Shown here piece after piece: positions 6,891 through 24,642 of a stretch of DNA of 45,088 nucleotides (positions are counted from its first letter, which is position 1; each line of letters starts with the position of its first letter). The stretch comes from Muribaculaceae bacterium (GTDB lineage Bacteria; Bacteroidota; Bacteroidia; Bacteroidales; Muribaculaceae): assembly GCA_017618355.1 (NCBI GenBank), contig JAFZUL010000049.1:1-45088 (forward strand), given 5' to 3'. The translations under genes were made by a program, and so were the position numbers. Below the pieces are notes generated by a model. It saw only the letters and a program-made list of their open reading frames with translations, was not told the origin of the DNA and did not search any database.

Positions 6891-6921
6891 CAAAGTTACT
6901 GCAAGCCGAGAGAAAAACAAA
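6891..6921 (-). promoter_or_regulatory. Promoter of DUF4290-rimM, inside repeat copy A
   Basis: The minus strand reads TTTG (6918-6921), 19 bases, TAACTTTG (6891-6898), an exact fit to the Bacteroidota housekeeping promoter. It implies a leader of less than 20 bases. Confidence 0.8.
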
Positions 6922-6980
6922 ATGAAAAACAAAGTTTTTTATTTTTATTTCCGAGGCGCAGCCTAATTTATCTGAAGTAA
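6891..6980 (-). repeat. Dispersed promoter repeat, copy A
   Basis: On the minus strand it begins AGATAAATTAGGCTGCGCCT, passes a T-rich centre with TTTTTCATTTTG and ends CTCGGCTTGCAGTAACTTTG. Related copies lie upstream of tsaB (two), kdsB and the transglutaminase gene (two). Confidence 0.85.
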
Positions 6981-7005
6981 CAAATAATTCAAGACAAGTG
7001 AAGCT

Positions 7006-7698
7006 TTACAGCACTTTTTTCTTTGCGACTGTGGCTTGGAAGTCTTTTAGGTAGAGAGGAGTAGAGTAGGCCACATCAATGAAATGTCTTTCTCTGAAAG
7101 CTTTCTCGGCCAGTGCCAGCATATCCACTGCCACTGGCTTGACGTCGGGCATGAATCGCGCGTTTTGATGCTTGATCACGTCTTTTGCCTTTTGCGCTCC
7201 GTTGCCTATAAGCACAAGCTGATGACTGGCGAGCAGAGATGCGAATGAATCCTCGTTCAATATCAAGGCTTGTGGCTCCTCGATGGCTTCTAAGGAGTTG
7301 TTATACACCGCTGTATATACTTCCATGCGACGGGCGTCAATCATAGGTACGTAAAGCGTATCGTCGTCAAAGAACTCTTGGAACATCGCTGTGACAGTAA
7401 GCAGCTGCAGCGTATTCACACCAATCAATGGCAAGTCTAACCCAAATGCCAAACCTTTGGCTTGCGACAAACCTATGCGCAAACCAGTGTAGGAACCGGG
7501 TCCTATGCTCACTGCGATGGCGTCGAGTGGCATTTCTTTGCGCTTTGCCGTGTTGAGCATGTCGTCGATGAACTGGCTTAACAGCGTGGCATGGTTTAGA
7601 CCATCATAGTTCTCGTGATGGTCAACTATCTGTCCCTCACTGCTTAATGCTACTGAGCACACAGCGGTTGAGGTCTCTATGTTGAGAATATTTGCCAT
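7006..7698 (-). CDS. tsaB: tRNA threonylcarbamoyladenosine biosynthesis protein TsaB
   Basis: TsaB is the inactive paralogue that dimerises with TsaD and supports transfer of threonylcarbamoyl to A37 of ANN-decoding tRNAs. The 230-residue product shows the ASKHA fold start ILNIETSTAVCSVAL, then the HATLLSQFIDDML and SIGPGSYTGLRIGLSQAKGLAF segments that define the family. A divergent C-terminal half with MIDARRMEVYTAVY follows. Length is typical. The gene is alone on the minus strand, back to back with yicC, and is served by two tandem copies of the dispersed promoter repeat. Confidence 0.95.
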   Translation of the reverse strand: MANILNIETSTAVCSVALSSEGQIVDHHENYDGLNHATLLSQFIDDMLNTAKRKEMPLDAIAVSIGPGSYTGLRIGLSQAKGLAFGLDLPLIGVNTLQLLTVTAMFQEFFDDDTLYVPMIDARRMEVYTAVYNNSLEAIEEPQALILNEDSFASLLASHQLVLIGNGAQKAKDVIKHQNARFMPDVKPVAVDMLALAEKAFRERHFIDVAYSTPLYLKDFQATVAKKKVL

Positions 7699-7717
7699 AA
7701 TAATTTAAAACTTGGTA

Positions 7718-7748
7718 CAAAATTAGTGCAAGTTGAGCGCAAAACAAA
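7718..7748 (-). promoter_or_regulatory. Promoter P1 of tsaB
   Basis: TTTG-N19-TAATTTTG on the minus strand is an exact match to the Bacteroidota consensus. Confidence 0.75.
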
Positions 7749-7799
7749 ATGAAAAACGAAGTTTTACATTTTTTTGCCGAAACGAAGCCTAATTTATCC
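7718..7799 (-). repeat. Dispersed promoter repeat, copy B1 (proximal to tsaB)
   Basis: On the minus strand it reads from GGATAAATTAGGC through TTTTTCATTTTG to CTTGCACTAATTTTG. It contains TTTG (7745-7748), 19 bases and TAATTTTG (7718-7725), 20 bases from the tsaB start. Confidence 0.85.
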
Positions 7800-7829
7800 A
7801 AAATTACTGCGAGCCGAGAGAAATACAAA
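7799..7829 (-). promoter_or_regulatory. Promoter P2 of tsaB
   Basis: TTTG-N19-TAATTTTG on the minus strand, exactly 81 bases upstream of P1, inside the second repeat copy. Confidence 0.7.
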
Positions 7830-7862
7830 ATGAAAAGCGTAGTTTTTAATTTTTTTTCCAAG
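7799..7862 (-). repeat. Dispersed promoter repeat, copy B2 (distal, partial)
   Basis: A second copy abuts B1 directly. It again has TTTG (7826-7829), 19 bases and TAATTTTG (7799-7806) on the minus strand, but it lacks the distal GATAAATTAGGC end. Bases 7863-7970, the rest of this 325-base gap, hold nothing I recognise. Confidence 0.8.
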
Positions 7863-7971
7863 GATCAGCATATCGTTTGCAATTGTATTTATTATAACAT
7901 TAGCATAATGATGTTAGTGTGTTCTCCAACTGTGGGAGCACATTTTGTTAATAAGTTAAGTCAATTAAATG

Positions 7972-8002
7972 TATGTAGAATAAGAAAAATTGTTTATTTT
8001 TG
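7972..8002 (+). promoter_or_regulatory. Promoter of the yicC-gmk-nadD run
   Basis: TATG, 19 bases and TATTTTTG (7995-8002). The -7 element is exact and the -33 element has one mismatch. It is about 21 bases from the yicC ATG. Confidence 0.6.
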
Positions 8003-8023
8003 CACCCAAACAAGACAAGAGCT

Positions 8024-8899
8024 ATGATATTATCAATGACAGGTTTCGGCAAGGCCACTATGGTGGTTTGTAACAAAAAGCTTACTGCCGAGATAAAATC
8101 GCTGAATAGCAAGCAGATGGATCTCACTGTAAAGGTCCCGCTGCTGTATAGAGAACTTGAATTGGATCTTCGCAACACAATTGCCAATGAGTTAGGTCGA
8201 GGCAAGGTGGATGTTTATATTACTAGCGAGTCAATTGACAATGCAGGAGCAGCGCAGCTTAATGTTGAGATGCTTCGCAGTTACAAGTCGCAAGTTGAGA
8301 ACTTATCGCAGAATTTAGGGCTTCCTGAACCTGAAGACTGGTATTCTACCTTGCTGCGTATGCCCGATGTGTATAAGCAGGATTTGAATGCCGAGGTTGC
8401 CCCAGAGGAGCTTGAAGGCGTGCGTGAGGTAGTTAGGCAGGCTTTGCAGGCAACGATCGATTTCCGTACTCAAGAGGGAACTAAGCTATATATCTTCTTC
8501 AAGGAGAAGATTGCTGTTATACAGAAGTTGCTTAACGATATTGCTCAGTATGAGTCCACTCGCACTGAGAAAATCAAGGCTCGCCTCATTGAGCAACTTG
8601 AACAGCTTGGGCAAGTCGATTATGACAATAACCGCCTGGAGCAAGAGCTTATCTTCTATATCGAGAAACTCGACATCACCGAGGAGAAAATAAGGCTGCA
8701 GAATCATCTCAACTACTTCCTTGAGACACTTGACGGCAGCGCGCGTCAAGGCAAGAAACTTGGTTTTATTGCACAAGAAATGGGCCGTGAGATAAACACC
8801 ACAGGTTCCAAGTCAAATCAAGCCGAGATGCAGAAACTCGTAGTTGAGATGAAAGACAATCTTGAACAAATTAAAGAACAAGTTCTTAATGTTTTGTAA
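8024..8899 (+). CDS. yicC: YicC family endoribonuclease
   Basis: YicC-type proteins are RNases reported in enterics to act with PNPase on small RNAs. The 291-residue product starts with the family hallmark MILSMTGFGKA and ends with the DUF1732 segment HLNYFLETLDG..GKKLGFIAQEMGREINTTGSK and a coiled-coil tail. The frame stays open upstream to 8000, but the promoter's -7 box ends at 8002, so ATG at 8024 is the only sensible start. gmk begins 4 bases after the stop, a pairing that is common across bacteria and points to one transcript. Confidence 0.93.
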   Translation: MILSMTGFGKATMVVCNKKLTAEIKSLNSKQMDLTVKVPLLYRELELDLRNTIANELGRGKVDVYITSESIDNAGAAQLNVEMLRSYKSQVENLSQNLGLPEPEDWYSTLLRMPDVYKQDLNAEVAPEELEGVREVVRQALQATIDFRTQEGTKLYIFFKEKIAVIQKLLNDIAQYESTRTEKIKARLIEQLEQLGQVDYDNNRLEQELIFYIEKLDITEEKIRLQNHLNYFLETLDGSARQGKKLGFIAQEMGREINTTGSKSNQAEMQKLVVEMKDNLEQIKEQVLNVL

Positions 8900-8903
8900 T
8901 AAT

Positions 8904-9485
8904 ATGGGAAAAGGTAAATTGATAGTAATTTCGGCGCCTTCGGGCACTGGTAAATCGACGATAATCGGTGAATTGATGAAGGATGCCGAGCTCAAGCTCG
9001 AGTTCTCAATTTCAGCCACCACACGTCCTCCACGAGGAGCTGAACAGCATGGAGTGGAGTATTATTTTCTCACTCTTGAGGACTTTAAGCAGCGCATAGA
9101 GAATGATGAGTTTGCCGAGTATCACGAGGTATATGAGGGCCGTTTCTATGGCACCCTAAAAAGCGAGATAAAGCGCATCACCGACAAGGGTCACAATGTT
9201 GTCCTTGACCTCGACGTGCTTGGTGGCATCGACGTAAAGAAGATTTACGGCAAGAAAGCTCTCGCTGTATTTATCAAGCCGCCCTCAATCGAGACTTTAC
9301 GCCAGAGATTGCTCTCTCGCGGCACCGACAGCATTGAGGACATCAATAACCGTGTGGCTCGTGCTGAGTATGAGCTGTCACTAGCTGACCAATACGACAC
9401 TTGCGTGGTAAATGACGTGCTTGAAAACGCTGTCGCCGAAACTCGAGAGATAATCACCAAGTTTATAACTAAGGCTAGGGTTTAG
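8904..9485 (+). CDS. gmk: Guanylate kinase
   Basis: The enzyme phosphorylates GMP to GDP with ATP. The product (193 residues from ATG 8904) has the P-loop SAPSGTGKST at residues 9-18, the GMP-binding SISATTRPPRGAEQHGVEYYF segment and the lid region RLLSRGTDSIEDINNR. The frame is open further upstream inside yicC, but homology starts at the MGKGKLIVISAPSG residues, so the upstream part is rejected. The gene ends in TAG, showing that TAG is used as a normal stop in this genome. Confidence 0.97.
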   Translation: MGKGKLIVISAPSGTGKSTIIGELMKDAELKLEFSISATTRPPRGAEQHGVEYYFLTLEDFKQRIENDEFAEYHEVYEGRFYGTLKSEIKRITDKGHNVVLDLDVLGGIDVKKIYGKKALAVFIKPPSIETLRQRLLSRGTDSIEDINNRVARAEYELSLADQYDTCVVNDVLENAVAETREIITKFITKARV

Positions 9486-9516
9486 GGTTTAGAGTTGAGA
9501 GGAGAGAGGTTTAAAA

Positions 9517-9543
9517 CTGACAAAAACTAATAACTAAAAACTG
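9517..9543 (+). repeat. ACTAATAACTAAAAACT word array before nadD
   Basis: A run of AACTGA, AAAAACT and AATAACT words ends 3 bases before the nadD start. The same vocabulary lies before three other genes in the window. Confidence 0.55.
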
Positions 9544-9545
9544 TA

Positions 9546-10142
9546 ATGAGACGTATCGGCATTTTTGGCGGCTCGTTCAATCCCATTCATGTGGGGCACG
9601 CTCTGATAGCTAACTATATTGTGGAGAGCGGTGCAATCGACATGTTGTGGTTGATGGTCTCGCCTCAGAATCCTCTTAAGGAGAACAGCGGGTTGGCAAG
9701 CGATTATCATCGGTTGCGCATGACCGAACTCGTGTCACGACGAATTGAAAACGTCATTACCTCGGCTTTTGAGTTTGACTTGCCCAAGCCTTCCTATACC
9801 ATCGATACCCTCAATTCCCTTCAAGCCAAGTTCCCTGACGACGAGTTCTATCTTGTGATAGGCGCCGACAATTGGTGCCTCTTTGACAAGTGGAAGAATG
9901 GCGAGGAGATAATCTCAAAATATCACATTCTGATTTATCCACGTCGAGGATATGACATTGTGATACCCGAGAAATACAGCGATAGGGTAAAGGTGGTGGA
10001 GGCTCCACTTATTGAGGTGTCTTCAACACAGATCAGAGAGCGACTTGCTCAGATGAAGCCGGTGTCGTTTTATGTGCCCGAAGCTGTGGAGAAATATATT
10101 CTTAAGAACAAACTATATATGGAAGCGCCATGCGCTGATTAG
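9546..10142 (+). CDS. nadD: Nicotinate-nucleotide adenylyltransferase
   Basis: NadD converts nicotinate mononucleotide and ATP to deamido-NAD in NAD synthesis. The 198-residue product has the nucleotidyltransferase signature IGIFGGSFNPIHVGHALIA at the N-terminus, the adenine-binding region FYLVIGADNWCLFDKWKN and the C-terminal EVSSTQIRERL motif. Length is normal. It follows gmk by 60 bases, as in many Bacteroidales, and probably shares the yicC promoter. Confidence 0.96.
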   Translation: MRRIGIFGGSFNPIHVGHALIANYIVESGAIDMLWLMVSPQNPLKENSGLASDYHRLRMTELVSRRIENVITSAFEFDLPKPSYTIDTLNSLQAKFPDDEFYLVIGADNWCLFDKWKNGEEIISKYHILIYPRRGYDIVIPEKYSDRVKVVEAPLIEVSSTQIRERLAQMKPVSFYVPEAVEKYILKNKLYMEAPCAD

Positions 10143-10198
10143 AGATTAGTTGTGCTTTGCACGATTAGGGATTAAAAACTAAGAACTTACATCTTAAT

Positions 10199-10723
10199 AT
10201 GGAAAACGATAAATTGTCTCCCACGAGTCTGGCATTCATTGCAATGGCCAATGAATACTGTGAGATAATCGAGAATTGCGTCGGACATGGTCGTGAGGGC
10301 GTAGTTGAATCAATGCTAAAACTATTGCCGCGCATCTATATTACAGTCAGTGATTTAGAGCCTAGTCTCGAATATTTTGATGCATTCATAAGTCAATCGC
10401 TCGATGAACCAACATACGACATGGTTCGTGGCAACCTTAGCGCTCTGATGGGAGAGGATGATGTTTATTTAGAGGTGTTCCTTGAGGACATGAAATATAG
10501 CGACACGCCCATTGCAGCCTCAATCTCGGAGAACCTTGCCGACTTGTATCAGGAGTTTTATAATGTGGTGTCTTCGCTACGTGACCTCAGCACCGATGAG
10601 CAGCGCCAAATCCTGGGCATGTGCAAGGAGAATTTCATCGAATACTGGGGGCAGACCTTGTGCAACGTGTTCCGCGCACTTCACTCATTGCGCATTGCCT
10701 ACCGTGATGAATTTGAGTGTTAA
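10199..10723 (+). CDS. DUF5063 family protein
   Basis: This 174-residue acidic, all-helical protein resembles DUF5063: an N-terminal LAFIAMANEYCEIIEN helix, a leucine-rich LLPRIYITVSDLEP segment and a C-terminal EYWGQTLCNVFRALHSLR helix. It has no signal peptide, membrane segment or catalytic motif, so it is probably cytoplasmic. Function is unknown. Its position after nadD and before an M18 peptidase does not suggest a specific role. ATG at 10199 is preceded by an A/T-rich word array rather than a Shine-Dalgarno site. Confidence 0.75.
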   Translation: MENDKLSPTSLAFIAMANEYCEIIENCVGHGREGVVESMLKLLPRIYITVSDLEPSLEYFDAFISQSLDEPTYDMVRGNLSALMGEDDVYLEVFLEDMKYSDTPIAASISENLADLYQEFYNVVSSLRDLSTDEQRQILGMCKENFIEYWGQTLCNVFRALHSLRIAYRDEFEC

Positions 10724-10746
10724 GAGAGCTAGTGCTATCCCTATGA

Positions 10747-10778
10747 AACTTATAACTGAAAACTAAAAACTGATAACT
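10747..10778 (+). repeat. AACTGAAAACTAAAAACTG word array before the M18 peptidase gene
   Basis: A run of AACTGAA, AACTAAAA and CTGATAACT words lies 9 bases before the start codon. The words match the arrays before nadD and the OmpA-domain gene. Confidence 0.55.
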
Positions 10779-10786
10779 ATTTTGAT

Positions 10787-12079
10787 ATGAAAAGCAAATA
10801 CATTGACTCATTATTGAAATTCATGGACAACAGTCCGTGTAACTTCCTTGCCGTTGACACAATGAAGAAAATTCTTGCCGACAATGGTTTCAAGGAGAAA
10901 AAACTCTCGGAGAAGATGAATGCCAAAGCAGGCGAGAAGTTCTTTTTCACCAAAAACGACTCGGCAATCTTTGCCGTGAAAGTGGGCAAGAAACCAATCA
11001 AAGAGACAGGTTATAAGATCATTGCTGCTCATAGCGACTCGCCATGTTTCCGAATCAAGCCTCATGCCGAGATGCGTTGTGATGGCGGTATAGTGAAACT
11101 CAATACCGAGGTGTATGGCGGACCAATCCTCTACACTTGGTTTGATCGCCCCTTGTCAATTGCCGGCAGGGTGATTCTCAAGGGCAAGAGTCCTCTCGAG
11201 GTGGTTTCTAGAAATATAAAGATTGACCGTCCGTTGATGCAGATTTCGCATCTCGCCATTCACTTCAACCGCGCTGTCAATGATGGCAATGCGCTGTCGA
11301 AGCAGAAGGATATGCTGCCAATTATCGCAAAGGTAAATAAAGATTTTGAGACAGGAAACATGCTTGTAAATTTAGTGGCTCAGGAACTTGATGTCGCAGT
11401 AGATGAGATACTTGATTTTGACCTGCTTCTTTATGATACAACCCCTGCTTGCACATTTGGCCTGAACAATGAATTCATATCATCGGGACGCCTTGATGAC
11501 CTGAGTATGGCTCATGCTGCTATCACTGCCATTACCGAGGCGACCGATGAGGATGCAACATGCATTGCCGCCATCTTTGACAACGAGGAGACGGGCAGTG
11601 GCACAAAGCAGGGCGCAGGTTCGCCTGTGCTCGCCAATGTGCTGCAACGCATGGCCGAGAACCAGGGCTGCAACTTCGACGATTACTGCATAGCATTGCA
11701 GAAGACCTTCCTAGTGAGTGCCGACAATGCTCACGCTCATCATCCTAACTATAGCGAGAAATATGACCCAACCAACCATCCCACTATGGGCAGTGGACCA
11801 TGCGTCAAGATAAACGCGAACTGCAAGTATATGAGCGATGCTCATTCGGCTGCTATCTTCAAGAACCTGTGTGATTCGGCTGGCTCGCCTTGCCAGTATT
11901 TTATCAATCACAGCGACGTGGCAGGTGGCTCTACACTAGGCAATATCCTTACTGGGCAGATTGATATTGAGGGTGTTGACGTTGGCAATCCATTGCTTGC
12001 CATGCACTCGGCACGTGAGACCGCTTCATGTGAAGACCATGTGAACATGATAAAAGTTTTCAAGACTTTTTTCAGTTGA
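10787..12079 (+). CDS. M18 family aminopeptidase (aspartyl aminopeptidase type)
   Basis: This 430-residue zinc aminopeptidase removes N-terminal residues, usually acidic ones, from cytoplasmic peptides. The M18 metal ligands are recognisable: IIAAHSDSPCFRIKP with the first histidine, SSGRLDDLSMAHAA, the FDNEETGSGTKQGAGSP segment with the catalytic glutamates, SADNAHAHHPNY, and the closing HSDVAGGSTLGNI. There is no export signal. The gene follows the DUF5063 gene by 63 bases on the same strand. The next gene has its own promoter, starting just after this stop codon. Confidence 0.93.
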   Translation: MKSKYIDSLLKFMDNSPCNFLAVDTMKKILADNGFKEKKLSEKMNAKAGEKFFFTKNDSAIFAVKVGKKPIKETGYKIIAAHSDSPCFRIKPHAEMRCDGGIVKLNTEVYGGPILYTWFDRPLSIAGRVILKGKSPLEVVSRNIKIDRPLMQISHLAIHFNRAVNDGNALSKQKDMLPIIAKVNKDFETGNMLVNLVAQELDVAVDEILDFDLLLYDTTPACTFGLNNEFISSGRLDDLSMAHAAITAITEATDEDATCIAAIFDNEETGSGTKQGAGSPVLANVLQRMAENQGCNFDDYCIALQKTFLVSADNAHAHHPNYSEKYDPTNHPTMGSGPCVKINANCKYMSDAHSAAIFKNLCDSAGSPCQYFINHSDVAGGSTLGNILTGQIDIEGVDVGNPLLAMHSARETASCEDHVNMIKVFKTFFS

Positions 12080-12080
12080 A

Positions 12081-12112
12081 TTTGCCAGATTGGCAAAAAA
12101 ATGCTACTTTTG
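12081..12112 (+). promoter_or_regulatory. Promoter of the phosphohexomutase gene
   Basis: TTTG (12081-12084), 20 bases, TACTTTTG (12105-12112). Both elements are exact. A small hairpin (TTTGCCA/TGGCAAA) overlaps the -33 element but has no T run and is not a terminator. Confidence 0.75.
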
Positions 12113-12148
12113 TGAAAAATAATACTAATATAATATAAACTAAGAATT

Positions 12149-13897
12149 ATGAATGACGAGAAACTTATTCAAGAATTGACCCTTAAAGCACAAAAATGGC
12201 TGGGAGAGGGTTATGACGAAGAGACCAAGGCACAAGTGAAGGCGATGATTGATGCCGATGACAAGACCGAGCTTATTGAGTCGTTCTACAAGGACCTCGA
12301 GTTTGGTACTGGTGGCTTGCGTGGCATTATGGGACCTGGTAGCAACCGCATGAACATATACACTGTGGGCGCCGCTACTCAGGGTCTTGCCAACTACATC
12401 AACGAGGCATTTAAAGACCTTCCTGAGCGCAAGGTGATTGTAGGACATGACGTTCGCAATAACAGCCGCCTCTTTGCTGAGACAGTTGCCAACATCTTCA
12501 GCGCCAACGGCATTAAGGTTTACCTTTTTGAAGGTCCACGCCCAACTCCCGAGGTGTCTTACGGCATCCGCCTGCTTGGCTGCCAGAGTGGTGTGAACAT
12601 CACAGCATCTCACAATCCTAAGGAGTACAACGGCTACAAGGCCTATTGGGACGATGGCGCACAGGTGGTATCGCCACACGATGTGAACATTATTAACTAT
12701 GTGAATGCCATCAAGGACGTCAGCGAGATTAAGTTTGAGGGCAACCCCGACTTGATTGAGATAGTAGGCAAGGAACTCGACGACAAGTATATTGAGGACA
12801 TCTACGAATTGTCGCTCAGCCCTGAGGTGAACGAGCGTTATAAAGACCTGAAGATTGTCTATACTCCAATTCATGGTGTTGGTCGCTATATCATTCCTCG
12901 CTCCATCGAGCGCTGGGGATTCAAGAACATCATCCACGTGCCCGAGCAGGACGTGATGAGCGGTGACTTCCCGACGGTTGAATCGCCCAATCCCGAGAAC
13001 GCCCCAACCATGCAGATGGCAATTGACAAGGCCGAGGAGACACAGGCCGACATCGCTCTCGCCAGTGACCCCGATGCCGACCGCATCAGCGTGGTGTTCA
13101 AGAACAACAAGGGTGTTTATGAGCTTGTGAACGGCAACCAGATTCAGATTATCTTCCACTATTACCTGCTCACCCGCAACCGTGAACTTGGCAAGCTCAC
13201 TGGCGATGAATATATCGTTAAGACCATCGTTACCAGCGAGACCATTAAGCGTATGGCCGACAAGCTAGGCGTAAAGATGTTTGACTGCTACACCGGCTTC
13301 AAGTGGATTGCTACTGTGATGCGCGAGATGGAAGGCAAAGGTCGCTACCTTGGCGGTGGCGAGGAGAGCTATGGCTTCCTGCCCGAGACATTCGCTCGCG
13401 ACAAAGACTCGGTTTCGTCAATTCCATTGATGTGCGAGATTGCCGCTTGGGCAAAGGACAAAGGCATGACCATGAACGAGATGCTCATTGATCTGTATCT
13501 CACTTATGGTTATTCTAAGGAGCGTGGCATCTCGGTAGTTCGCAAGGGCAAGAGCGGTGCTGAGGAGATTGTAGCGATGATGAAGAACTTCCGCGAGAAT
13601 CCACAGAAGGAAATTGCTGGTTCGCCAGTTGTCACTATCAAGGACTTCCAAAGTCTGGAGGAACTCGATGTCAAGACCGGCAAGATTACCAAACTCGACA
13701 TGCCAACTACCAGCAATGTGCTCCAGTATTACACCGAAGATGGCACTAAGGTCTCGATTCGTCCTTCGGGCACCGAGCCTAAGATCAAGTTCTACATCGA
13801 GGTTCACGACAAGCTCGAGAGCGCTGCTGAGTATGACGCCAAGAACGAGTGGGCCGATGCTAAAATCGACACCATCTGCCACGACTTGGGTATTTAG
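12149..13897 (+). CDS. Phosphoglucomutase/phosphomannomutase family enzyme
   Basis: The enzyme interconverts hexose 1- and 6-phosphates, feeding glycogen, sugar-nucleotide and envelope sugar pathways. All four alpha-D-phosphohexomutase signatures are present in the 582-residue product: the phosphoserine loop ITASHNPKEYNGYK (Ser154), the Mg loop DPDADRI (307-313), the sugar loop GGEESYGF (403-410) and the phosphate-binding RPSGTEPKIKFY (538-549). Length fits the long PgcA-like group rather than the 450-residue PMM group. Substrate preference cannot be read from sequence. It has its own promoter and ends in TAG. Confidence 0.93.
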   Translation: MNDEKLIQELTLKAQKWLGEGYDEETKAQVKAMIDADDKTELIESFYKDLEFGTGGLRGIMGPGSNRMNIYTVGAATQGLANYINEAFKDLPERKVIVGHDVRNNSRLFAETVANIFSANGIKVYLFEGPRPTPEVSYGIRLLGCQSGVNITASHNPKEYNGYKAYWDDGAQVVSPHDVNIINYVNAIKDVSEIKFEGNPDLIEIVGKELDDKYIEDIYELSLSPEVNERYKDLKIVYTPIHGVGRYIIPRSIERWGFKNIIHVPEQDVMSGDFPTVESPNPENAPTMQMAIDKAEETQADIALASDPDADRISVVFKNNKGVYELVNGNQIQIIFHYYLLTRNRELGKLTGDEYIVKTIVTSETIKRMADKLGVKMFDCYTGFKWIATVMREMEGKGRYLGGGEESYGFLPETFARDKDSVSSIPLMCEIAAWAKDKGMTMNEMLIDLYLTYGYSKERGISVVRKGKSGAEEIVAMMKNFRENPQKEIAGSPVVTIKDFQSLEELDVKTGKITKLDMPTTSNVLQYYTEDGTKVSIRPSGTEPKIKFYIEVHDKLESAAEYDAKNEWADAKIDTICHDLGI

Positions 13898-14322: not shown

Positions 14323-14346
14323 TAAAGCAAAAACAATGTATAATCA

Positions 14347-17654: not shown

Positions 17655-17691
17655 AATTCACAATTAATCAAATGATTTAATGGTAGTTGTC

Positions 17692-17740
17692 ATACTCCTC
17701 AGTTGCTTCGTGACAGCTCCTCTAACTTAGAGGAGCAGCT
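17692..17740. repeat. CTCCTCAGT hairpin repeat, copy 1
   Basis: The words CTCCTCAGTTGCTTCGTGAC and AGCTCCTCTAACTTAGAGGAG form a perfect 9-bp hairpin at the right end. A close relative lies at 28572-28617, and partial relatives at 28498-28534 and 29475-29512. Confidence 0.75.
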
Positions 17741-17775
17741 AAAAATCATTTTGACACATGCTTCAACAATTATCT

Positions 17776-17813: not shown

Positions 17814-17819
17814 GAAAAG

Positions 17820-17893: not shown

Positions 17894-17910
17894 TTTCACT
17901 TTTGCGACTG

Positions 17911-17941
17911 CAAAGGTACTGCTTTTTTTTATTCTGTGCAA
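17911..17941 (-). promoter_or_regulatory. Promoter of tRNA-Met
   Basis: TTG (17939-17941), 20 bases, TACCTTTG (17911-17918) on the minus strand, about 17 bases ahead of the tRNA. All core bases match the consensus. Confidence 0.8.
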
Positions 17942-17969
17942 GAACTACGGCATTTTTTTCATAAAAAGT

Positions 17970-19277: not shown

Positions 19278-19284
19278 GGTTTCA

Positions 19285-20046
19285 TTATTGGTTAAGGAAC
19301 TGCTCGGCACGCTCTAGGTCTTGTGGCGTGTCGATGCCTATAGATGAATGCTGGGTGATGCCCGCCTTGATAGTCATGCCGTTCTCAAGCCAGCGAAGCT
19401 GTTCGAGCGACTCGGCAAGTTCGAGCGACGATGGCTCCATGCTAGTGATGTCATTCAGCACCTTAGCGCGGTAGGCATAAATGCCGAGATGGGTATAATA
19501 CTGGTGCTTGCTGGGCCACAGCGACTTGTCGATGCCACGCAGGTGTGGAATCACCGACCGTGAGAAATACATCGCGTTCATGTTGCCGTTGAGCACCACT
19601 TTTACCGAGTTGGGATTTTCTAGTTCTTCATAAGTCTTTGCCTTGTCAAATGGTTTGACAAGCGTGGCGATGTCGGTGATTTCATCGTTGAAGCACAACT
19701 TTAGCGCCTCAATCTGCTCAGGAAGGATAAACGGCTCATCGCCTTGCACATTAATAATAATGTCCTCGTTGCCGCTGTTCTTTTGATAGGCCTCCCAGCA
19801 GCGGTCGGTTCCGCTGCGATGTTGAGAGCTGGTCATCACAGCCTTGCCGCCAAAGCCGACGACGTGGTTGAAAATGCGCTCATCGTCGGTTGCCACCAGC
19901 ACATTGTCGATGGCTTTAGATACTTGCTCATACACACACTGGATTACCGTCTTGCCGCCAAGCATTGCCAGCGGTTTACCAGGAAATCGCGTGGAGGCAA
20001 AGCGCGCAGGAATGATTGCTATAAATCTCGATGTTGCCATAGTCAT
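19285..20046 (-). CDS. kdsB: 3-deoxy-manno-octulosonate cytidylyltransferase (CMP-Kdo synthetase)
   Basis: KdsB activates Kdo with CTP for lipid A inner-core synthesis. The 253-residue product begins FIAIIPARFASTRFPGKPLA, the family's nucleotide-binding motif, and has SSQHRSGTDRCWEA, the IIINVQGDEPFI segment and HLGIYAYRAKVL. A second in-frame ATG at 20040 would fit the very short leader predicted from the promoter at 20060-20090 equally well. The gene is followed after 7 bases by the M16 protein and is driven from dispersed repeat copy C. Confidence 0.96.
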   Translation of the reverse strand: MTMATSRFIAIIPARFASTRFPGKPLAMLGGKTVIQCVYEQVSKAIDNVLVATDDERIFNHVVGFGGKAVMTSSQHRSGTDRCWEAYQKNSGNEDIIINVQGDEPFILPEQIEALKLCFNDEITDIATLVKPFDKAKTYEELENPNSVKVVLNGNMNAMYFSRSVIPHLRGIDKSLWPSKHQYYTHLGIYAYRAKVLNDITSMEPSSLELAESLEQLRWLENGMTIKAGITQHSSIGIDTPQDLERAEQFLNQ

Positions 20047-20059
20047 TAGTTCTTTGGCG

Positions 20060-20090
20060 CAAAATTAGTGCAAGTAGAGGGCAGAACAAA
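20060..20090 (-). promoter_or_regulatory. Promoter of kdsB, inside repeat copy C
   Basis: TTTG (20087-20090), 19 bases, TAATTTTG (20060-20067) on the minus strand, an exact match. The predicted leader is about 7 bases, close to leaderless. Confidence 0.75.
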
Positions 20091-20150
20091 ATGAAAAACG
20101 ATATTTTTTCATTTTTTATGCCTCGACGCAGCCTAATTTATCTAAAATTA
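20060..20150 (-). repeat. Dispersed promoter repeat, copy C
   Basis: On the minus strand it runs from TAGATAAATTAGGCTGCGTC through TTTTTCATTTTG to CTTGCACTAATTTTG. The -7 end lies 14 bases from the kdsB ATG. Confidence 0.85.
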
Positions 20151-20171
20151 CAAATTATCTGTGATATTCAC

Positions 20172-20209
20172 AAAAAAATACTGACCGCATCATTAAAGAG
20201 TGCGGTCAG
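20172..20209 (-). terminator. Terminator of rpsF-rpsR-rplI
   Basis: On the minus strand CTGACCGCA (20201-20209 on plus) pairs perfectly with TGCGGTCAG and is followed by TATTTTTTT. The loop is 11 bases. Confidence 0.85.
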
Positions 20210-20253
20210 CATTATTAGAATGAAGGTCTCTAGAAGAAACCAATGTTTTTTGC

Positions 20254-20808
20254 TTACTCAGCTGCGGGAGCTTCCTCGGCGTCCTCAACGGCGGGAGCCT
20301 CTTCCATTACGGGAGCTTCCTCTACTGCGGGAGCCTCTTCAACTACAGGAGCCTCCTGCTTGGGAGCGTTCTCAGAGATAACCTCGAAAGGAATCTCAAC
20401 AGCAACTTCCTTGTGCAGTTGTACGGTGGCAGTGTATTTGCCAAGTTCCTTAACATTGTCAACCTTGATGATCTTGCGGTCAACCTCGTGGCCGAGCTTA
20501 GCGAGCTCCTCAGCAATCTGGTTGCTGCCTACAGAACCGTAGATAGTGCCAAAGTTGTCGGTCTTAGCGCTGATAGTGAGAGCGATGCCCTTCATCGACT
20601 CGGCGATAGCCTCGGCGTCACCTTTGATCTTAGCGATCTTGTGAGCGCGCTGACGAAGATTCTCGGCGAGAACTTTTAAAGCTGAAGGCGATGCCATGAT
20701 GGCTTTGCCAGTTGGAATAAGATAGTTGCGGGCGTAGCCGTTCTTTACTTCAACAACGTCGTCCTTGTAGCCAAGGTTCATAACGTCTTCTTTCAATATA
20801 ATCTTCAT
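20254..20808 (-). CDS. rplI: Large subunit ribosomal protein bL9 with acidic tail
   Basis: bL9 bridges 23S rRNA domain V and neighbouring ribosomes. Residues 1-148 are standard: MKIILKEDVMNLGYKDDVVEVKNGYARNYLIPTGKA, a connecting helix and the C-terminal domain. Residues about 149-184 add a tail of repeated EEAPAV-type units rich in Ala, Pro and Glu, which most bL9 proteins lack. The gene is last in the rpsF-rpsR-rplI operon and has its own strong Shine-Dalgarno site, which is rare in this window. Confidence 0.95.
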   Translation of the reverse strand: MKIILKEDVMNLGYKDDVVEVKNGYARNYLIPTGKAIMASPSALKVLAENLRQRAHKIAKIKGDAEAIAESMKGIALTISAKTDNFGTIYGSVGSNQIAEELAKLGHEVDRKIIKVDNVKELGKYTATVQLHKEVAVEIPFEVISENAPKQEAPVVEEAPAVEEAPVMEEAPAVEDAEEAPAAE

Positions 20809-20816
20809 AGTGTATT

Positions 20817-20822
20817 ACCTCC
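20817..20822 (-). promoter_or_regulatory. Shine-Dalgarno site of rplI
   Basis: The minus strand reads GGAGGT, 8 bases before the rplI ATG. Nearly every other gene in the window lacks such a site. Confidence 0.75.
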
Positions 20823-20831
20823 AGTTTTAAA

Positions 20832-21101
20832 TTATTTCATCAAATCGGTTACGTAGGGCAGTAATGCCAAGTGGCGTGCGCGCTTGATGGCGCGGGCAAC
20901 GCGGCGTTGGAACTTGAGCGATGTGCCAGTGATGCGACGAGGCAAGATTTTACCTTGCTCGTTGAGGAACTTCTTCAAGAACTCGGGGTCCTTGTAGTCG
21001 ATGTACTTAATGCCACTTCTCTTGAAACGGCAATATTTCTTCTTCTTGGTATCTACACTCAGTGGGGTGAGATAGCGGATTTCGGATTGAGCTTGTGCCA
21101 T
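20832..21101 (-). CDS. rpsR: Small subunit ribosomal protein bS18
   Basis: bS18 sits on the 30S platform with bS6. The 89-residue product from ATG 21101 has the classic [20 protein letters not shown] and [24 protein letters not shown] segments. The upstream ATG at 21122 overlaps the rpsF stop codon and includes the ribosome-binding site, so the internal start is chosen. Spacing in the operon is tight: 20 bases after rpsF and 23 bases before rplI. Confidence 0.97.
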
Positions 21102-21111
21102 AGTTATGTTT

Positions 21112-21118
21112 CCTCCTT
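21112..21118 (-). promoter_or_regulatory. Shine-Dalgarno site of rpsR, decides the start
   Basis: The minus strand reads AAGGAGG, matching seven consecutive bases of the 16S rRNA 3' tail, 10 bases before ATG at 21101. It excludes the in-frame ATG at 21122. Confidence 0.8.
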
Positions 21119-21121
21119 GCA

Positions 21122-21535
21122 TTATTCGTTAGTTACTTCGTTAACTTCAGCTTGAGGTGCTTCGGCAACGGGTTCCTCGGCGGGAGTTTCCTCTACTTTA
21201 GGAGCATTCTTCTTCAAGCTTCTTCTCTTCAGTGCATACTCGTGAGCGAACTTGTCCTGACGGAAAGTCAAGAAACGGAGCACCTTCTCGTCGCGACGAT
21301 AGGCAGTCTCGAGCTTGCTTACGATAGTTGGTTCACCAGCGAACTCAAGGAACGCATAAAATCCGGTAGATTTCTTCTGGATGGGATAAGCGAGTTTGCG
21401 CATTCCCCACAGCTCTTCATTCTCGATTGTCGCACCGTTGTCGGTGAGAACAGTCTTGAATTTTTCTACCGCTTCCTTCATCTGAGGCTCAGACAAAACG
21501 GGAGTTAAAATGAAAACGGTTTCGTAGTTGTACAT
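21122..21535 (-). CDS. rpsF: Small subunit ribosomal protein bS6 with acidic tail
   Basis: bS6 pairs with bS18 on the 30S platform. The 137-residue product has the ferredoxin-like fold starting [16 protein letters not shown] and the [22 protein letters not shown] and [13 protein letters not shown] segments. Residues from about 112 add a tail with [16 protein letters not shown], longer than usual for the family and similar in composition to the bL9 tail. It heads the operon, has no Shine-Dalgarno site and has a consensus promoter at 21591-21621. Confidence 0.96.
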
Positions 21536-21590
21536 AAAATTTTTAAATAAATTAATTAATAAAATGTATGTGCTTTTTTAAAAAGCGGTG

Positions 21591-21621
21591 CAAAGGTAGT
21601 AAAACTCTGTGGATTACACAA
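21591..21621 (-). promoter_or_regulatory. Promoter of the rpsF operon
   Basis: TTG (21619-21621), 20 bases, TACCTTTG (21591-21598) on the minus strand, giving a leader of about 50 bases rich in A and T. Confidence 0.8.
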
Positions 21622-21701
21622 CTTTTTTGAACGTTTTTTTCAAATTTAGTGTAAAAAACGCATTTTCGTCATTATAATACGGCTGTGGAGGGGTGAAAAA
21701 C

Positions 21702-21732
21702 TTGCATATTTCAGAATTAATTGCGATATTTG
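21702..21732 (+). promoter_or_regulatory. Promoter of the GH13 lipoprotein gene
   Basis: TTG (21702-21704), 20 bases, GATATTTG (21725-21732), one mismatch to TAnnTTTG. It lies about 40 bases before the ATG. Confidence 0.6.
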
Positions 21733-21772
21733 CAGAAAATAAGTTATTCTAATTAATCAAAAACACACCATT

Positions 21773-23110
21773 ATGAGAAAGTTTTTATCTCTGGTTTTTA
21801 TTGCTGCATTGCTGAGTTCGTGCAGTACCGTAAAGAACCAACCATTAACTAATTACCAATTGCCGGCGACTAATGACGTGGTAATGTATCAGGTGAACCC
21901 ACGAGTGTTTGCCCCTAACAAGTCGCTTAAGGCTGTGGAGCAGCGTGTTGAGGCCATTCATGACCTGGGTGCCAACGTGATGTGGGTGATGCCCATCTAT
22001 CCCATCGGCAAGGTGAAGAGCAAGAACTCCCCTTATTCTATCAGTGATTATAAAAAGGTGAATCCTGAGTTTGGCACTATTGATGACATGAAGTCGCTTG
22101 TCAAGACCTGCCATGCCAACGGCATGTCGATTATCCTCGACTGGGTGGCAAACCACACCGCTTGGGACAATGTGTGGATGAAGAACCACAAAGACTGGTA
22201 CACCCAAGATGCCGACGGCAATGTGATATATCCTCCCGGTACCGACTGGACCGATGTCGCCGACCTTAACTACGACAACCCCGAGATGCGCGCCGCTATG
22301 ATTGACGCCATGAAGTTCTGGGTGAATGAGGTGGGTGTTGACGGCTTCCGCTGCGATGTCGCCGATCAAGTGCCTGCCGACTTCTGGAAACAGGCCATCA
22401 CTGAGCTTCGAAAGAGTGCCGGAGGCCGCAAGATATTGATGCTTGCCGAGGGTGCCAACCCCGATAATTTCACTGTTGGCGGCTTCGACATGAACTATGC
22501 TTGGGGCTTTATGGGTGTTCTTGACAAGGTGTTCGTTAAGGGCAACAAAGCCAGCGACTTGATTGACTGCGATAAGAGGGAATACAACGAGATTCCTAAA
22601 GGCAAAGTGAAACTGCGCTTCACCACAAACCATGATGAGGCGACGAAATACTCTACCGTTCAGCAGTTTGGAAGTGTGGATGGTGCCTTGGCGGCATTTG
22701 TTGCCACTACCTTCTTGCATGGCGGCATGCTCGTTTATGGCTCGCAAGAGGTTGCTTATCCCGAGAAAATCAACTTCTTCAACTATGTGCCGGTAGATTG
22801 GAACTCCAACCCCGATGTGCTCGCCACCTACAAGAAGCTCATAGCTATCTACAAGGAAAATCCCGCTATCAGCAAGGGCGACTTGGTAACTTATCCCGAC
22901 GACAACGTTCTCGTTTTTGAGAAGACCGACTACGTCAACGATTTCTTGGTGCTGGTAAATGTGCGCAACAGCAAACAGTCATTCAAGAATATCCCAAGCC
23001 AGTGGCAAAACATCAATCTTACCGATATGATGTCAATAAGAAACATTCGTGTCCGTCTGGGCAAGGAGATAGAATTGGCACCGTTCCAGTACATGATTCT
23101 TAAGAAATAA
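21773..23110 (+). CDS. GH13 alpha-amylase family lipoprotein
   Basis: The 445-residue product is exported and lipidated: the lipobox LLSSC places the lipid on Cys17. The GH13 regions are intact: DWVANH (123-128), GFRCDVAD with nucleophile Asp195, LAEGAN with acid/base Glu226 and TTNHDE with His287 and Asp288. A short beta domain ends the protein. It should cleave or rearrange alpha-1,4-glucans at the outer membrane or in the periplasm. It stands alone, with its own promoter and terminator and no SusC/SusD pair in the window, so it is not part of a complete starch locus here. Exact specificity is unknown. Confidence 0.92.
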   Translation: MRKFLSLVFIAALLSSCSTVKNQPLTNYQLPATNDVVMYQVNPRVFAPNKSLKAVEQRVEAIHDLGANVMWVMPIYPIGKVKSKNSPYSISDYKKVNPEFGTIDDMKSLVKTCHANGMSIILDWVANHTAWDNVWMKNHKDWYTQDADGNVIYPPGTDWTDVADLNYDNPEMRAAMIDAMKFWVNEVGVDGFRCDVADQVPADFWKQAITELRKSAGGRKILMLAEGANPDNFTVGGFDMNYAWGFMGVLDKVFVKGNKASDLIDCDKREYNEIPKGKVKLRFTTNHDEATKYSTVQQFGSVDGALAAFVATTFLHGGMLVYGSQEVAYPEKINFFNYVPVDWNSNPDVLATYKKLIAIYKENPAISKGDLVTYPDDNVLVFEKTDYVNDFLVLVNVRNSKQSFKNIPSQWQNINLTDMMSIRNIRVRLGKEIELAPFQYMILKK

Positions 23111-23146
23111 GAGGAATTTATTAGTAAATACTTCTATTAAAATATT

Positions 23147-23189
23147 TGGGTCCAAAAAGTCTTTGTTTTACTTTTTGGACCCATTTTTT
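23147..23189 (+). terminator. Terminator of the GH13 gene
   Basis: A perfect 14-bp stem (23147-23160 with 23170-23183) has a 9-base loop and a T run. It may also work in reverse for the convergent nitroreductase gene. Confidence 0.9.
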
Positions 23190-23233
23190 ACAGACAACCC
23201 AATCTGATTATGCATTGTGAATTATGCATTAAT

Positions 23234-23908
23234 TTACTCCCACTCGAAGTTTTCGGTGCCGGCGCCTATTTCGAAGTGGTATTTGACGATGCCCAGGTCA
23301 ACTTTGGCGTAGGGACCAAAGCCGGCTTTTGCAGCCACTTTGTTGCCTGGTTTCAGTTCAAATTTGAACTTCTGCTGGTTGATGGCTGTTGGAGCGAGCA
23401 GGGCGCAGCCAATGCCTTGCTGATACCATTGTGGAGCGGTCATCACATCGGTTTTGCTCACTTTTTCGGGTGACTTCCTTTTATGGTCCACACCCTGTGT
23501 GGCGCCATAACCTAACGAGATGAGGCACACTAATTTTTCGTCTTTATTAATGTCGAGCACGCTGCCAATTTTCTTGTACGACAATCCCACCCAGCAGGTG
23601 TTCAGGCCCATCATCTGCGCCTCAAGCACCAGCTTCTCACCGTAATAGCCTACAGTCTCATCTAGAGAGTCGCTCTTATTTCCAATCATAGCAAAATAGC
23701 AGGTCACACCACTGAACTTGCCATAACGCGCCAGCAGGCTCTCGCCAAAGGAACGAGGCTCGTTGGTGATAAGTTGAATGTGAAGCCCACTTTGAGCATT
23801 GTATTCATTAACAAGTTGTTGCAGACGTTCTATCTTTTCAGTCTCGATGACTTGGTCGGTGTAATGCCGCACTGAGTGACGGGCAGATATCGCTTCCAGA
23901 ATATCCAT
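23234..23908 (-). CDS. Nitroreductase family FMN protein
   Basis: This 224-residue protein fits the nitroreductase fold: the FMN-binding start ISARHSVRHYTDQ, a central YYGEKLVLEAQMMGLNTCWVG segment, and SLGYG followed by a C-terminal region with GIGCALLAPTAINQQKF. The arrangement resembles the two-domain TM1586-like nitroreductases, in which two half folds form a pseudo-dimer in one chain. Such flavoproteins reduce nitro compounds or quinones with NAD(P)H; the natural substrate is unknown. It is 3 bases downstream of the GNAT gene and certainly cotranscribed. Confidence 0.85.
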   Translation of the reverse strand: MDILEAISARHSVRHYTDQVIETEKIERLQQLVNEYNAQSGLHIQLITNEPRSFGESLLARYGKFSGVTCYFAMIGNKSDSLDETVGYYGEKLVLEAQMMGLNTCWVGLSYKKIGSVLDINKDEKLVCLISLGYGATQGVDHKRKSPEKVSKTDVMTAPQWYQQGIGCALLAPTAINQQKFKFELKPGNKVAAKAGFGPYAKVDLGIVKYHFEIGAGTENFEWE

Positions 23909-23911
23909 AGA

Positions 23912-24385
23912 TTACAATATTTTTTCAAGATAGGTTTTCAGAGGTTTCATGCCGCAAGTGTCATAGAACGCACGTGCTCCCGGGTTACATTCCCACACGT
24001 TGAGAGTGACGTTATAGAAGCCGTTATTGCGTGCAAAGTCTATCACATAGTCATATAACCGCTTGGCGATGTGTTGGCGACGACAATTCTCATCAACACA
24101 GAGGTCGTCGATGTAGAGTGTCTTGACATCTGTGCGGTTGTTGTCGTTGATGAACTGCTCCACAATACCGAAGCAGTAGCCTAGCACTATATCGTTGTCA
24201 TCGACCAGGACAAAGATTGGCGATTTCTCCCGGTCGGCGATTATCGCCACAAGTTGCTCATCGGTGTATTTGCGGTTTCCTTTTTTGAAAAGGTCGGGCC
24301 TTCCATCGGCATGCACGTTGTTGACCTGAGTCAGCAATTCGTGGATGCGAGGTATGTCCCGATTTTCGGCTCTGCGTATTTCCAT
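23912..24385 (-). CDS. GNAT family N-acetyltransferase
   Basis: The 157-residue protein starts MEIRRAENRDIPRIHELL and has the acetyl-CoA-binding motif A region LYIDDLCVDENCRRQHIAKR, followed by NVTLNVWECNPGARAFYDTCGM, a normal GNAT ending. The frame remains open to an ATG at 24451, but residues in that extension are translated dispersed repeat (copy D), so the start at 24385 is chosen. The substrate is unknown. It is the first gene of a two-gene unit with the nitroreductase. Confidence 0.88.
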   Translation of the reverse strand: MEIRRAENRDIPRIHELLTQVNNVHADGRPDLFKKGNRKYTDEQLVAIIADREKSPIFVLVDDNDIVLGYCFGIVEQFINDNNRTDVKTLYIDDLCVDENCRRQHIAKRLYDYVIDFARNNGFYNVTLNVWECNPGARAFYDTCGMKPLKTYLEKIL

Positions 24386-24401
24386 AATCATTATATTTTT
24401 A

Positions 24402-24470
24402 TATAAATTAGGCTGCGCCTCGGAAAAACTCAAATAAATTTGATTTTTCACTCGGCTTGCACTAATTTTC
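24402..24470 (+). repeat. Dispersed promoter repeat, copy D (degenerate)
   Basis: On the plus strand it runs from ATAAATTAGGCTGCGCCT to CTCGGCTTGCACTAATTTTC. It has TTTG (24439-24442), 20 bases and TAATTTTC; the last base of the -7 box is changed. Its distal end abuts the GNAT gene and it points towards copy E. Confidence 0.8.
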
Positions 24471-24472
24471 TA

Positions 24473-24501
24473 CAAAGGTATGCAGAAATCTCGTATGTCA
24501 A
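24473..24501 (-). promoter_or_regulatory. Possible promoter of the GNAT-nitroreductase unit
   Basis: The minus strand has TTG (24499-24501), 18 bases, TACCTTTG (24473-24480). The -7 box is exact but the spacing is one base short. Transcription would cross copy D before the ATG at 24385. Confidence 0.45.
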
Positions 24502-24550
24502 TAAAAAAATCAAAAAAAACATGATAAATCGTGTTGATATTTATTTTTTC

Positions 24551-24642
24551 ACTAATTTTAGATAAATTAGGCTGCACCTCGCAAATAAAAATGAAAATCT
24601 TCGCTTTTCATTTTGTATTTATCTCGGTTTGCACTAATTTTG
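24551..24642 (+). repeat. Dispersed promoter repeat, copy E
   Basis: The plus strand runs from CTAATTTTAGATAAATTAGG through CTTTTCATTTTG to TCGGTTTGCACTAATTTTG. It is the best-preserved copy. Confidence 0.85.
24612..24642 (+). promoter_or_regulatory. Promoter of the transglutaminase locus, inside repeat copy E
   Basis: TTTG (24612-24615), 19 bases, TAATTTTG (24635-24642), 27 bases from the ATG at 24670. An exact consensus match. Confidence 0.8.

Follow-up and report, generated by a model that had tools for sequence, protein, structure and literature searches.

The positions of repeats that carry promoters are usually ascribed to selection after insertion. Integrases directed at tRNA genes enter a sequence that is needed and restore its 3′ end from their own end. 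Small repeats with promoters include BrickBuilt, a miniature inverted-repeat transposable element (MITE) of Porphyromonas gingivalis, a host which also belongs to the order Bacteroidales, and the Correia elements of Neisseria. In Bacteroidetes, the TnpA-REP genes of subclass 2.6, named after repetitive extragenic palindromes (REP), are bordered by atypical structures that also have copies at other places in the genome (Quentin et al., 2018, PMC6006769). Elements of the IS200/IS605 family have a tetranucleotide target next to their left end, and their cleavage points are set by guide sequences (PMC6006769). The promoter consensus of the primary sigma factor of Bacteroidota consists of TAnnTTTG at −7 and TTTG near −33 (PMC7366714). 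The present study concerns a dispersed repeat with six copies (c1–c6) in a 45,088-nucleotide (nt) stretch of a Muribaculaceae bacterium (GenBank assembly GCA_017618355.1, contig JAFZUL010000049.1, positions 1 to 45,088, forward strand), hereafter the window. This window corresponds to contig 137 in a draft genome of 2.9 Mb and 178 contigs (89.5% complete), labelled G000; other G numbers denote further genomes and L numbers fetched stretches. The draft is considered Sodaliphilus-like, since a window protein has its orthologues in genomes assembled from gut and rumen metagenomes under the labels Muribaculaceae, Prevotellaceae, Porphyromonadaceae or Bacteroidales, two of which are Candidatus Sodaliphilus. 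Judging from sequence comparison, this repeat is probably a palindromic, non-autonomous element of a REP/MITE-like kind, which chooses its insertion site by sequence, directly 3′ of a −7 box TAnnTTTG that is already present, so that the promoter would be rebuilt in place.

Target site, carried promoter and orientation

The target can be read where relatives hold the same promoter without a copy. At the RF-1 gene, identified by PF00472 and PF03462, the G000 site has the form CTATTCACTACCTTTG/GATAAATTAGG...CACTAATTTTG/CACCCAAAATTG, with the junctions TACCTTTG/element/CACCC. The empty site is TACCTTTGC or TAACTTTGC in 8/8 aligned relatives, without an element on that side, and the RF-1 gap of L339 holds another copy that faces the opposite way. 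At most TTTG is common to both sides of the element at this site. In the RF-1, GSCFA and AI-2E comparisons, 8, 9 and 8 of 11 fetched relatives could be aligned, respectively. Upstream of the transglutaminase gene, the G000 arrangement CACTAATTTTA/GATAAATTAGG...CACTAATTTTG/TGGGTTAAA corresponds to the empty site CATTAATTTTG/TAGGTTAAAA, or nearly so, in three close relatives (L205–L207); the native box is thus present in 3/7 aligned relatives, the other four being too divergent upstream to be read. The empty tsaB site carries TAATTTTG or TAACTTTG in all six aligned relatives, the DUF4290 site carries a native −7 box in 5/6, and kdsB has a native box near the start in 4/6. The sequence 3′ of the element's right box resembles that 3′ of the native box at the RF-1, transglutaminase, tsaB and DUF4290 genes, and therefore the distance from box to start is approximately kept.

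The left flanks of the copies point in the same direction. Of the 34 non-tandem full copies of G000, 15 have TAnnTTT(G/A) in direct contact with the left end, a count that rises to 24 when one mismatch is allowed. Only 416 of 118,523 intergenic positions (0.35%) form the background, which corresponds to an enrichment of about 125-fold (p about 3e-28). The variable bases nn of the 15 exact left boxes are AT in seven cases and CT, CC, AG, AA or TT in eight, while those of the right box are AT in most of the 49 full copies. Because of this variability on the left, the left box is considered to be derived from the target. Exact left boxes were also present in 9/16 copies of G072 and 4/11 single loci of other genomes of the genus. 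In G217, which belongs to another family, all seven listed copies, one of them in tandem, are preceded by TATCTTTG or TAACTTTG as judged by eye; the listing contains no copy from an eighth stretch, L435. An off-target case is c5, which lies at a TATTTTT-like sequence antisense to a GNAT gene. A further 15 copies have a left flank similar to another copy's right end, giving arrays with a 70–85-nt period. Such arrays may arise from reinsertion behind the element's own right end, with tandem duplication by recombination as an alternative source.

Two side observations were made on related palindromes. In G217 (L429–L434), the −7 box and the main palindrome are separated by a small hairpin whose stem varies but remains self-complementary. 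In G295 (L420–L428), a related palindrome is embedded in a longer repeat of near-identical sequence, perhaps a larger mobile element by which it was captured; because of this embedding, the G295 copies are unusable for defining ends.

The element itself carries promoter sequences. TTTG precedes the box by 19 or 20 nt in 44 of the 49 full copies, in agreement with sigma-ABfr-type promoter elements, and this count bears out the complete-looking Bacteroidota promoter, facing out of one fixed end, that the initial annotation had described. The accompanying idea that the repeat brings promoters to genes lacking them is not supported, as most readable empty sites already have a −7 box at the junction. 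At the readable sites, the sequences establish the choice of site, the polarity and the absence from most orthologous sites. They equally establish that a fresh TAATTTTG, mostly with TTTG 19–20 nt upstream, now occupies the position of the native box with respect to the gene. Insertion would thereby exchange the −33 and upstream part of the promoter and supply a new −7 box as far from the start codon as the old one had been. The new box is presumably used as a promoter, and rebuilding in place would be the reason why insertion into a core promoter is tolerated, even at housekeeping genes.

The family was delimited in G000 in two ways. The pattern TTGCASTAAYTTTG has 48 matches, compared with one for the reversed control, and 88 matches at E ≤ 0.1 were obtained with a sequence model built on the six copies of the window. 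Fetching 54 stretches around matches and iterating the profile led to 76 retained copies. The weak model matches at C160:11311, C178:9999, C176:13957 and C28:5144 were left out of the fetched set, and six of the 54 stretches contain no copy of the final set: L084, L097 and L099, with a pattern match only, and L112–L114, with weak model matches. The profile gives the consensus GATAAATTAGGCTGCGCCTCGG...hairpin...CATTTTGTTTTTCTCTCGGCTTGCACTAATTTTG when the −7 box is placed at the right. There are two length classes, of about 70 and 82–85 nt, with different centres. The left end GATAAATTAGG abuts the box, and the right end CTAATTTTG faces the gene. Among the listed matches, those to the right half alone are commoner than those to the left half alone, but conservation is higher in the right half, which is therefore detected more easily.

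The orientation relative to genes, which were called by a codon-based script with approximate starts, is far from random, as the initial annotation had anticipated. In G000, 73/76 copies face the start of a coding sequence; two copies point at the end of a codirectional gene, and one is located in a convergent gap. As one of the two copies aimed at gene ends points at a tRNA-Leu gene, 74/76 face the start of a coding sequence or a tRNA. In codirectional gaps, 29/31 copies point downstream (p 4.6e-7), or 21/23 when counted per gap (p 7e-5). Copies in convergent gaps are rare (1/76), though convergent gaps make up 30 of the 212 gaps of at least 60 bp in these stretches. For 46 of 58 genes, no more than 100 nt separate a candidate start from the nearest copy, the median being 34. 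The bias is repeated in G041 (40/43; codirectional 16/19; 43 copies from 20 stretches, with 56 genome matches) and in G072 (23/24; codirectional 5/6; 24 copies from 18 stretches, with 32 matches, one copy overlapping a called gene start). No tRNA gene occurs in the stretches of the four codirectional exceptions of these two genomes. In G060, orientation was uniform (10/10) in the two tandem clusters that represent this genome.

An orientation bias as strong as this would also be produced by an element which inserts at random and whose copies are kept by selection where they face a gene and supply it with a promoter. The promoter half alone, kept at the GSCFA gene in L347 and L354, fits the same explanation. 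However, most readable empty sites already have a −7 box at the junction and left flanks are enriched about 125-fold above background, so that such an origin is improbable, and as the sole cause it is mostly refuted by these two lines of evidence. The bias is attributed mainly to directional target choice, and selection after insertion may still act as a possible second cause.

Mobility, palindromic structure and candidate enzymes

The repeat is widespread in the genus. Matches were found in 68 of 72 other genus genomes, the weakest being G003, G021, G030 and G064 (best E only about 1e-4), and many genomes have more than 30. Beyond the genus, matches at E ≤ 1e-5, some of them few and weak, occur in 17 of 294 further genomes of the order, which represent 11 other genera. 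All per-genome counts in both comparisons are lower bounds. At the orthologous loci of relatives, no copy was detected with the G000 profile (E ≤ 1e-3) in 28/29 cases for tsaB, 29/29 for kdsB and 79/80 for transglutaminase, where divergent copies could escape the profile and some loci are incomplete. The transglutaminase exception is the distantly related L265, in which a separate copy (2880–2965) lies shortly upstream of the start and probably reflects an independent insertion at the equivalent promoter. Since relatives mostly lack copies at the window promoters and at the RF-1 gene, the copies are regarded as mobile. The repeat is also short, non-coding and present in 76 copies, and as in MITEs its termini are inverted repeats, AAATTAG and CTAATTT, with much of the length pairing imperfectly. 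The view of a non-autonomous, mobile-looking repeat, already put forward in the initial annotation, is supported by these data.

A conserved promoter or operator type that arose in place and defines a regulon would also have a shared promoter at a short and similar distance from genes. Such an origin is extremely improbable, as similarity extends over 70–85 nt upstream of unrelated genes, the joints look like insertions, and one copy lies in a convergent gap (L100:5022-5105). A regulon or convergent promoter is refuted by the empty orthologous sites.

The palindrome extends along the whole element. In the 49 full copies, 21 pairs along the length are formed in 93.3% of cells, compared with 38–54% in slid versions, and double-change cells number 112, compared with 41 in shuffles. 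Four of five palindrome measures lie above all 500 shuffles; the structure was picked on the same alignment that was used to test it, which favours the structure. An unguided scan yielded 24 covarying column pairs, nine of which fall exactly on the palindrome axis, including the strongest (20-74, 26-67 and 30-64), and several others neighbour those on the axis. RNAalifold alone predicted nine pairs on the same axis. A hairpin acting at the RNA level is not supported: stem cells with G.T/T.G number 7 and those with A.C/C.A 22, counts of non-independent events which give no sign that the sense RNA keeps wobble pairs. The excess of A.C/C.A would fit folding of the other strand, which is a weak lead.

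AAATTAG at the left terminus forms the complement of CTAATTT at the end of the box. L062 and L106 each contribute two copies in which AAAATAG is combined with CTATTTT or a near form. In 11 loci of seven other families, whose boxes are TATCTTTG, TATTTTTG and TATATTTG, the left 7-mer is complementary to the box of the same locus without any mismatch in five cases, with one mismatch in four and with two mismatches in two, but the best-matching 7-mer was picked within a 55-nt stretch, which favours a match, and the 11 loci are related. Shuffling these 7-mers gave 14.8 mismatches compared with the 8 observed (P 0.001), a weak test because the 7-mers had been picked for matching their own box. Co-evolution of left end and box across families is supported, though not proven, by these comparisons. 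With less certainty than for promoter use, mobility may proceed via a folded single strand in which the left end AAATTAG would pair with the −7 box CTAATTT, so that the box would be both target and transposition end. The enzyme would act in trans.

Candidate enzymes were sought among Y1 and RAYT-like proteins. Matches to PF01797 (Y1_Tnp) were found in 70 of 76 genus genomes. When 19 RAYT-like loci were searched with a broad profile, L315 alone showed good copies of the repeat, and L321 and L331 showed weak ones, with none in the reversed control; around the small Y1 genes, weak repeat matches were present only in L305 and L306. L315, from G041, has two good tandem copies (1698–1863) located 0.8 kb from a RAYT-like gene (2674–3492), a link that may be due to chance because another gene lies between. 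The proteins read from 26 of the 30 small Y1 loci (L285–L314) and from L334 are mostly of the Y...Q..HH kind and, by eye, correspond to subclass 1.2 as given in Table 1 of PMC6006769. The 18 RAYT-like proteins that were read have 259–272 amino acids, with the motif YIH[QN]NP in 12 and WQ in one, and fall between subclasses 2.1 (by length) and 2.6 (by motifs, in 12/18) as these are characterized in the tabulated part of PMC6006769. A search of PDB with a RAYT-like protein returned one match (E 0.72), which was not useful. No parent element with the same ends was seen in the fetched stretches.

A REP/RAYT system (REPtron), in which the repeat would be an atypical REP of a Bacteroidetes TnpA-REP, for instance of subclass 2.6 (PMC6006769), differs from the proposed element only in naming the enzyme. 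The imperfect palindrome with compensatory stems, the YIH[QN]NP motif given for subclass 2.6 (PMC6006769) and found in 12/18 proteins, and the pair of good copies in L315 near a gene of this kind would suit it. This assignment is nevertheless rather doubtful. The proteins are longer than the subclass median of 179 stated in that source (PMC6006769), WQ occurs in only 1/18, good copies lie near only one of 19 RAYT-like loci, and there is no GTAG foot. The gene, not found in 46/76 genomes, does not track the repeat, and G045 and G057 (each more than 90% complete, without a Y1 match at E ≤ 0.001) point against a need for Y1; this argument from presence and absence is weakened by incomplete drafts and by old, immobile copies.

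Besides the way in which the 7-mers were picked, several observations weigh against a palindromic element that targets and rebuilds the −7 box. A native −33 TTTG lies 18–20 nt upstream of the old box in only 6/23 copies, and in the closest kdsB relative (L176) the box stands at a different distance. Exact left boxes are lacking in all 12 non-tandem copies of G041 (3/12 with at most one mismatch), perhaps because these copies are older. The fifth palindrome measure, further pair types, is unexceptional (55 of 500 shuffles as high). Some sites are shared in part: the GSCFA site (L086) has a copy in L346 (G044) and the right half alone in G041 and G065, among nine aligned relatives, and the AI-2E transporter site (L110) has copies in L358 and L361, among eight. 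Three genomes from other genera of the same family have no repeat match. No autonomous element or enzyme was found, recombinase classes other than Y1 and RAYT-like having been left unsearched. A RAYT-like gene is present in only 30/76 genus genomes, in some as fragments, and was not found in G000, G072 or G060; six genus genomes without a Y1_Tnp match still have at least 12–41 repeat copies.

Likeness between the two sides of copies also belongs here. The left flank agrees with the right box at 6.27 of 8 positions, compared with 6.03 in the best of 1000 shuffles, tandem copies being included. Right box and left flank are identical over 7–8 bases in L063 and L086, and the right box of c1 is identical to the native box of relatives, all of which would fit a target duplication of 8–10 bp. 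The boxes of these three copies could also be exchange products of a tyrosine recombinase of the IntDOT type, acting on a circular form with the joint TAATTTTG/GATAAATTAG; this alternative, too, concerns the enzyme only. The Bacteroides attB of IntDOT is GTAnnTTTGC, a target of the same class, and tandem joints look like such an attachment joint. The string GTANNTTTGC for the attB of CTnDOT was not confirmed in the literature found. However, the joints are not reciprocal hybrids, both boxes of c1 look native, and at the RF-1 site the left box is native and the right one is the element's. A double-stranded circle of 82 bp is implausible. No enzyme of this type, none having been searched for, is tied to the repeat, and such a route is regarded as unlikely.

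Copies in the window, their genes and other repeats

All six window copies lie where the initial annotation had placed them, to within about 10 bases. They are linked to each other by an independent repeat search of the window, and a profile built from them recovers the same six (E 1e-17 to 1e-27), which is circular as evidence. An exact TTTG-N19-TAnnTTTG is present in five; the exception is c5, with TTTG-N20-TAATTTTC. Copy c1 (6891–6972, minus strand, long class) has its −7 box TAACTTTG at 6891–6898 and lies upstream of the DUF4290 gene (6273–6866, minus strand; PF14123, E 5e-75). Its left flank TTACTTCA (6973–6980, minus strand) is presumably a decayed old −7 box. Copies c2 (7718–7798, minus strand, long class; −7 box TAATTTTG at 7718–7725) and c3 (7799–7872, minus strand) form a true tandem upstream of a tsaB-like gene (7006–7698, minus strand; PF00814, the TsaD family, E 2e-27), whose name is taken over from the initial annotation. 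The −7 box TAATTTTG of c3 (7799–7806) is the left flank of c2. Copy c3 is real, but the end first assigned to it was wrong, as it reaches about 7872, with a degenerate left side in which no end is recognisable.

Copy c4 (20060–20142, minus strand, long class; −7 box TAATTTTG at 20060–20067) precedes a kdsB-like cytidylyltransferase gene (19285–20046, minus strand; PF02348, E 2e-56), likewise named after the initial annotation, and its left flank TAATTTTA (20143–20150, minus strand) is presumed to be the remains of the target box. Copy c6 (24561–24642, plus strand, long class; −7 box TAATTTTG at 24635–24642) precedes a transglutaminase-like gene (24673–25968, plus strand; PF01841, E 1e-21); its left flank TAATTTTA (24553–24560, plus strand) corresponds to the former native −7 box, TAATTTTG in three relatives. 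Copy c5 (24402–24470, plus strand, short class), 90 nt away from c6, has the terminal box TAATTTTC at 24463–24470 and the left flank TATTTTTA at 24394–24401, plus strand. The statement that every copy lies directly upstream of a gene needs correction for c5, which faces the transglutaminase gene only over a distance of about 200 nt, with c6 intervening. It lies antisense in the leader of a GNAT acetyltransferase gene (23912–24391, minus strand; PF00583, E 1e-17), 10–17 nt upstream of the gene start, and points away from it.

Other features of the window were noted in passing. A second dispersed repeat (17684–17758 and 28562–28636; 83% alike over 75 nt) has a palindromic look, CTCCTCAGT.ACTTCGTGACAGCTCCTCTAA...TAGAGGA.CAGCT, and by eye falls outside the family of c1–c6. 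Two 32-mers rich in G/C runs (AGCTCCCCCTCTAAGATAAAGGGGG...; 28497–28528 and 29482–29513) form an inverted pair, 91% complementary, and are possibly related to this second repeat. Low-complexity dispersed repeats occur at 4799–4894 and 6201–6236, and at 5600–5632 and 10747–10779 (ATCGGGGATC-like and AACTGAAAACTAAAAACTGATAACTA-like); similar strings lie upstream of genes elsewhere, for example in L109, and CTTGTTACTTCTTACTT arrays in L340. An 18-nt unit is repeated at 20279–20350 within the 3′ end of the ribosomal protein L9 gene, and one open frame of 2505 codons spans 34523–42040.

Significance and comparison with known systems

The landing site of the repeat is the core promoter, which is seemingly rebuilt, and this would explain the dozens of copies in front of housekeeping genes. 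Taken more widely, and with the chances evenly balanced for and against, the repeat may represent a class widespread in Bacteroidales which homes to the core promoter, its −7 box serving as target, right end and partner of a left-end guide. The upstream half of the promoter would be swapped with the start point kept, housekeeping promoters (RF-1, kdsB, tRNA-Leu) would be repeatedly rewired, and the box variants TAATTTTG, TATTTTTG, TATCTTTG and TATATTTG would co-evolve with the guide. If this is true, the target rule of a mobile element equals a transcription signal, and promoter turnover in gut Bacteroidales becomes measurable from sequence. Conserved upstream repeats in these genomes should then not be taken for regulons.

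A literature search, in which most subscription papers were outside the scope, found no report of this repeat or of an element targeting the −7 box. A promoter-bearing repeat is not new in itself, because BrickBuilt and the Correia elements carry promoters; what appears to be new here is a repeat that targets the −7 box and rebuilds the promoter. Like the present repeat, BrickBuilt is repeated, always intergenic and non-autonomous, and its promoter activity was demonstrated in E. coli (PMC4596501). It differs by its 23-nt minisatellite, ISPg-like terminal repeats, bidirectional promoters and short target duplications of varying length in three of four copies, and neither a −7 box target nor a whole-length palindrome is described in the available text of that report (PMC4596501). 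The copies aligned here have no tandem bricks of 23 nt, and their ends differ from the ISPg-like ends given for BrickBuilt (PMC4596501). Correia elements are likewise small mobile repeats with promoters, mostly located immediately upstream of genes, but belong to another phylum and promoter type, and targeting or restoring of a core promoter is not among the properties described in the accessible part of PMC10969869.

Imperfect palindromes, clusters, the lack of an internal gene and likely processing as a single strand are shared with REP and TnpA-REP systems (PMC6006769). In contrast, the present repeat is 70–85 nt long, with a promoter at one end, a −7 box as target and no consistently linked TnpA-REP gene, and instead of the 5′ GT[AG]G foot of REP it has GATAAATTAGG or variants. 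With IS200/IS605 elements such as IS608 it has in common a target at the left flank, putative guide pairing, hairpins and a right end resembling the target (PMC5934647; PMC6006769). Joints of this type, in which the target abuts the left end and the right end mimics the target without a duplication, are seen at the RF-1 site and in the left flanks, but c1, L063 and L086 would be compatible with a duplication, and an exact left box is absent from the 12 non-tandem copies of G041. Whereas those elements have two subterminal hairpins, a single whole-length hairpin is found here without a linked transposase, and the repeat is not filed under IS200/IS605 because no enzyme tracks it. Compared with integrases that target tRNA genes, the restored sequence would in this case be a core promoter, and the element that restores it is only 70–85 nt long.

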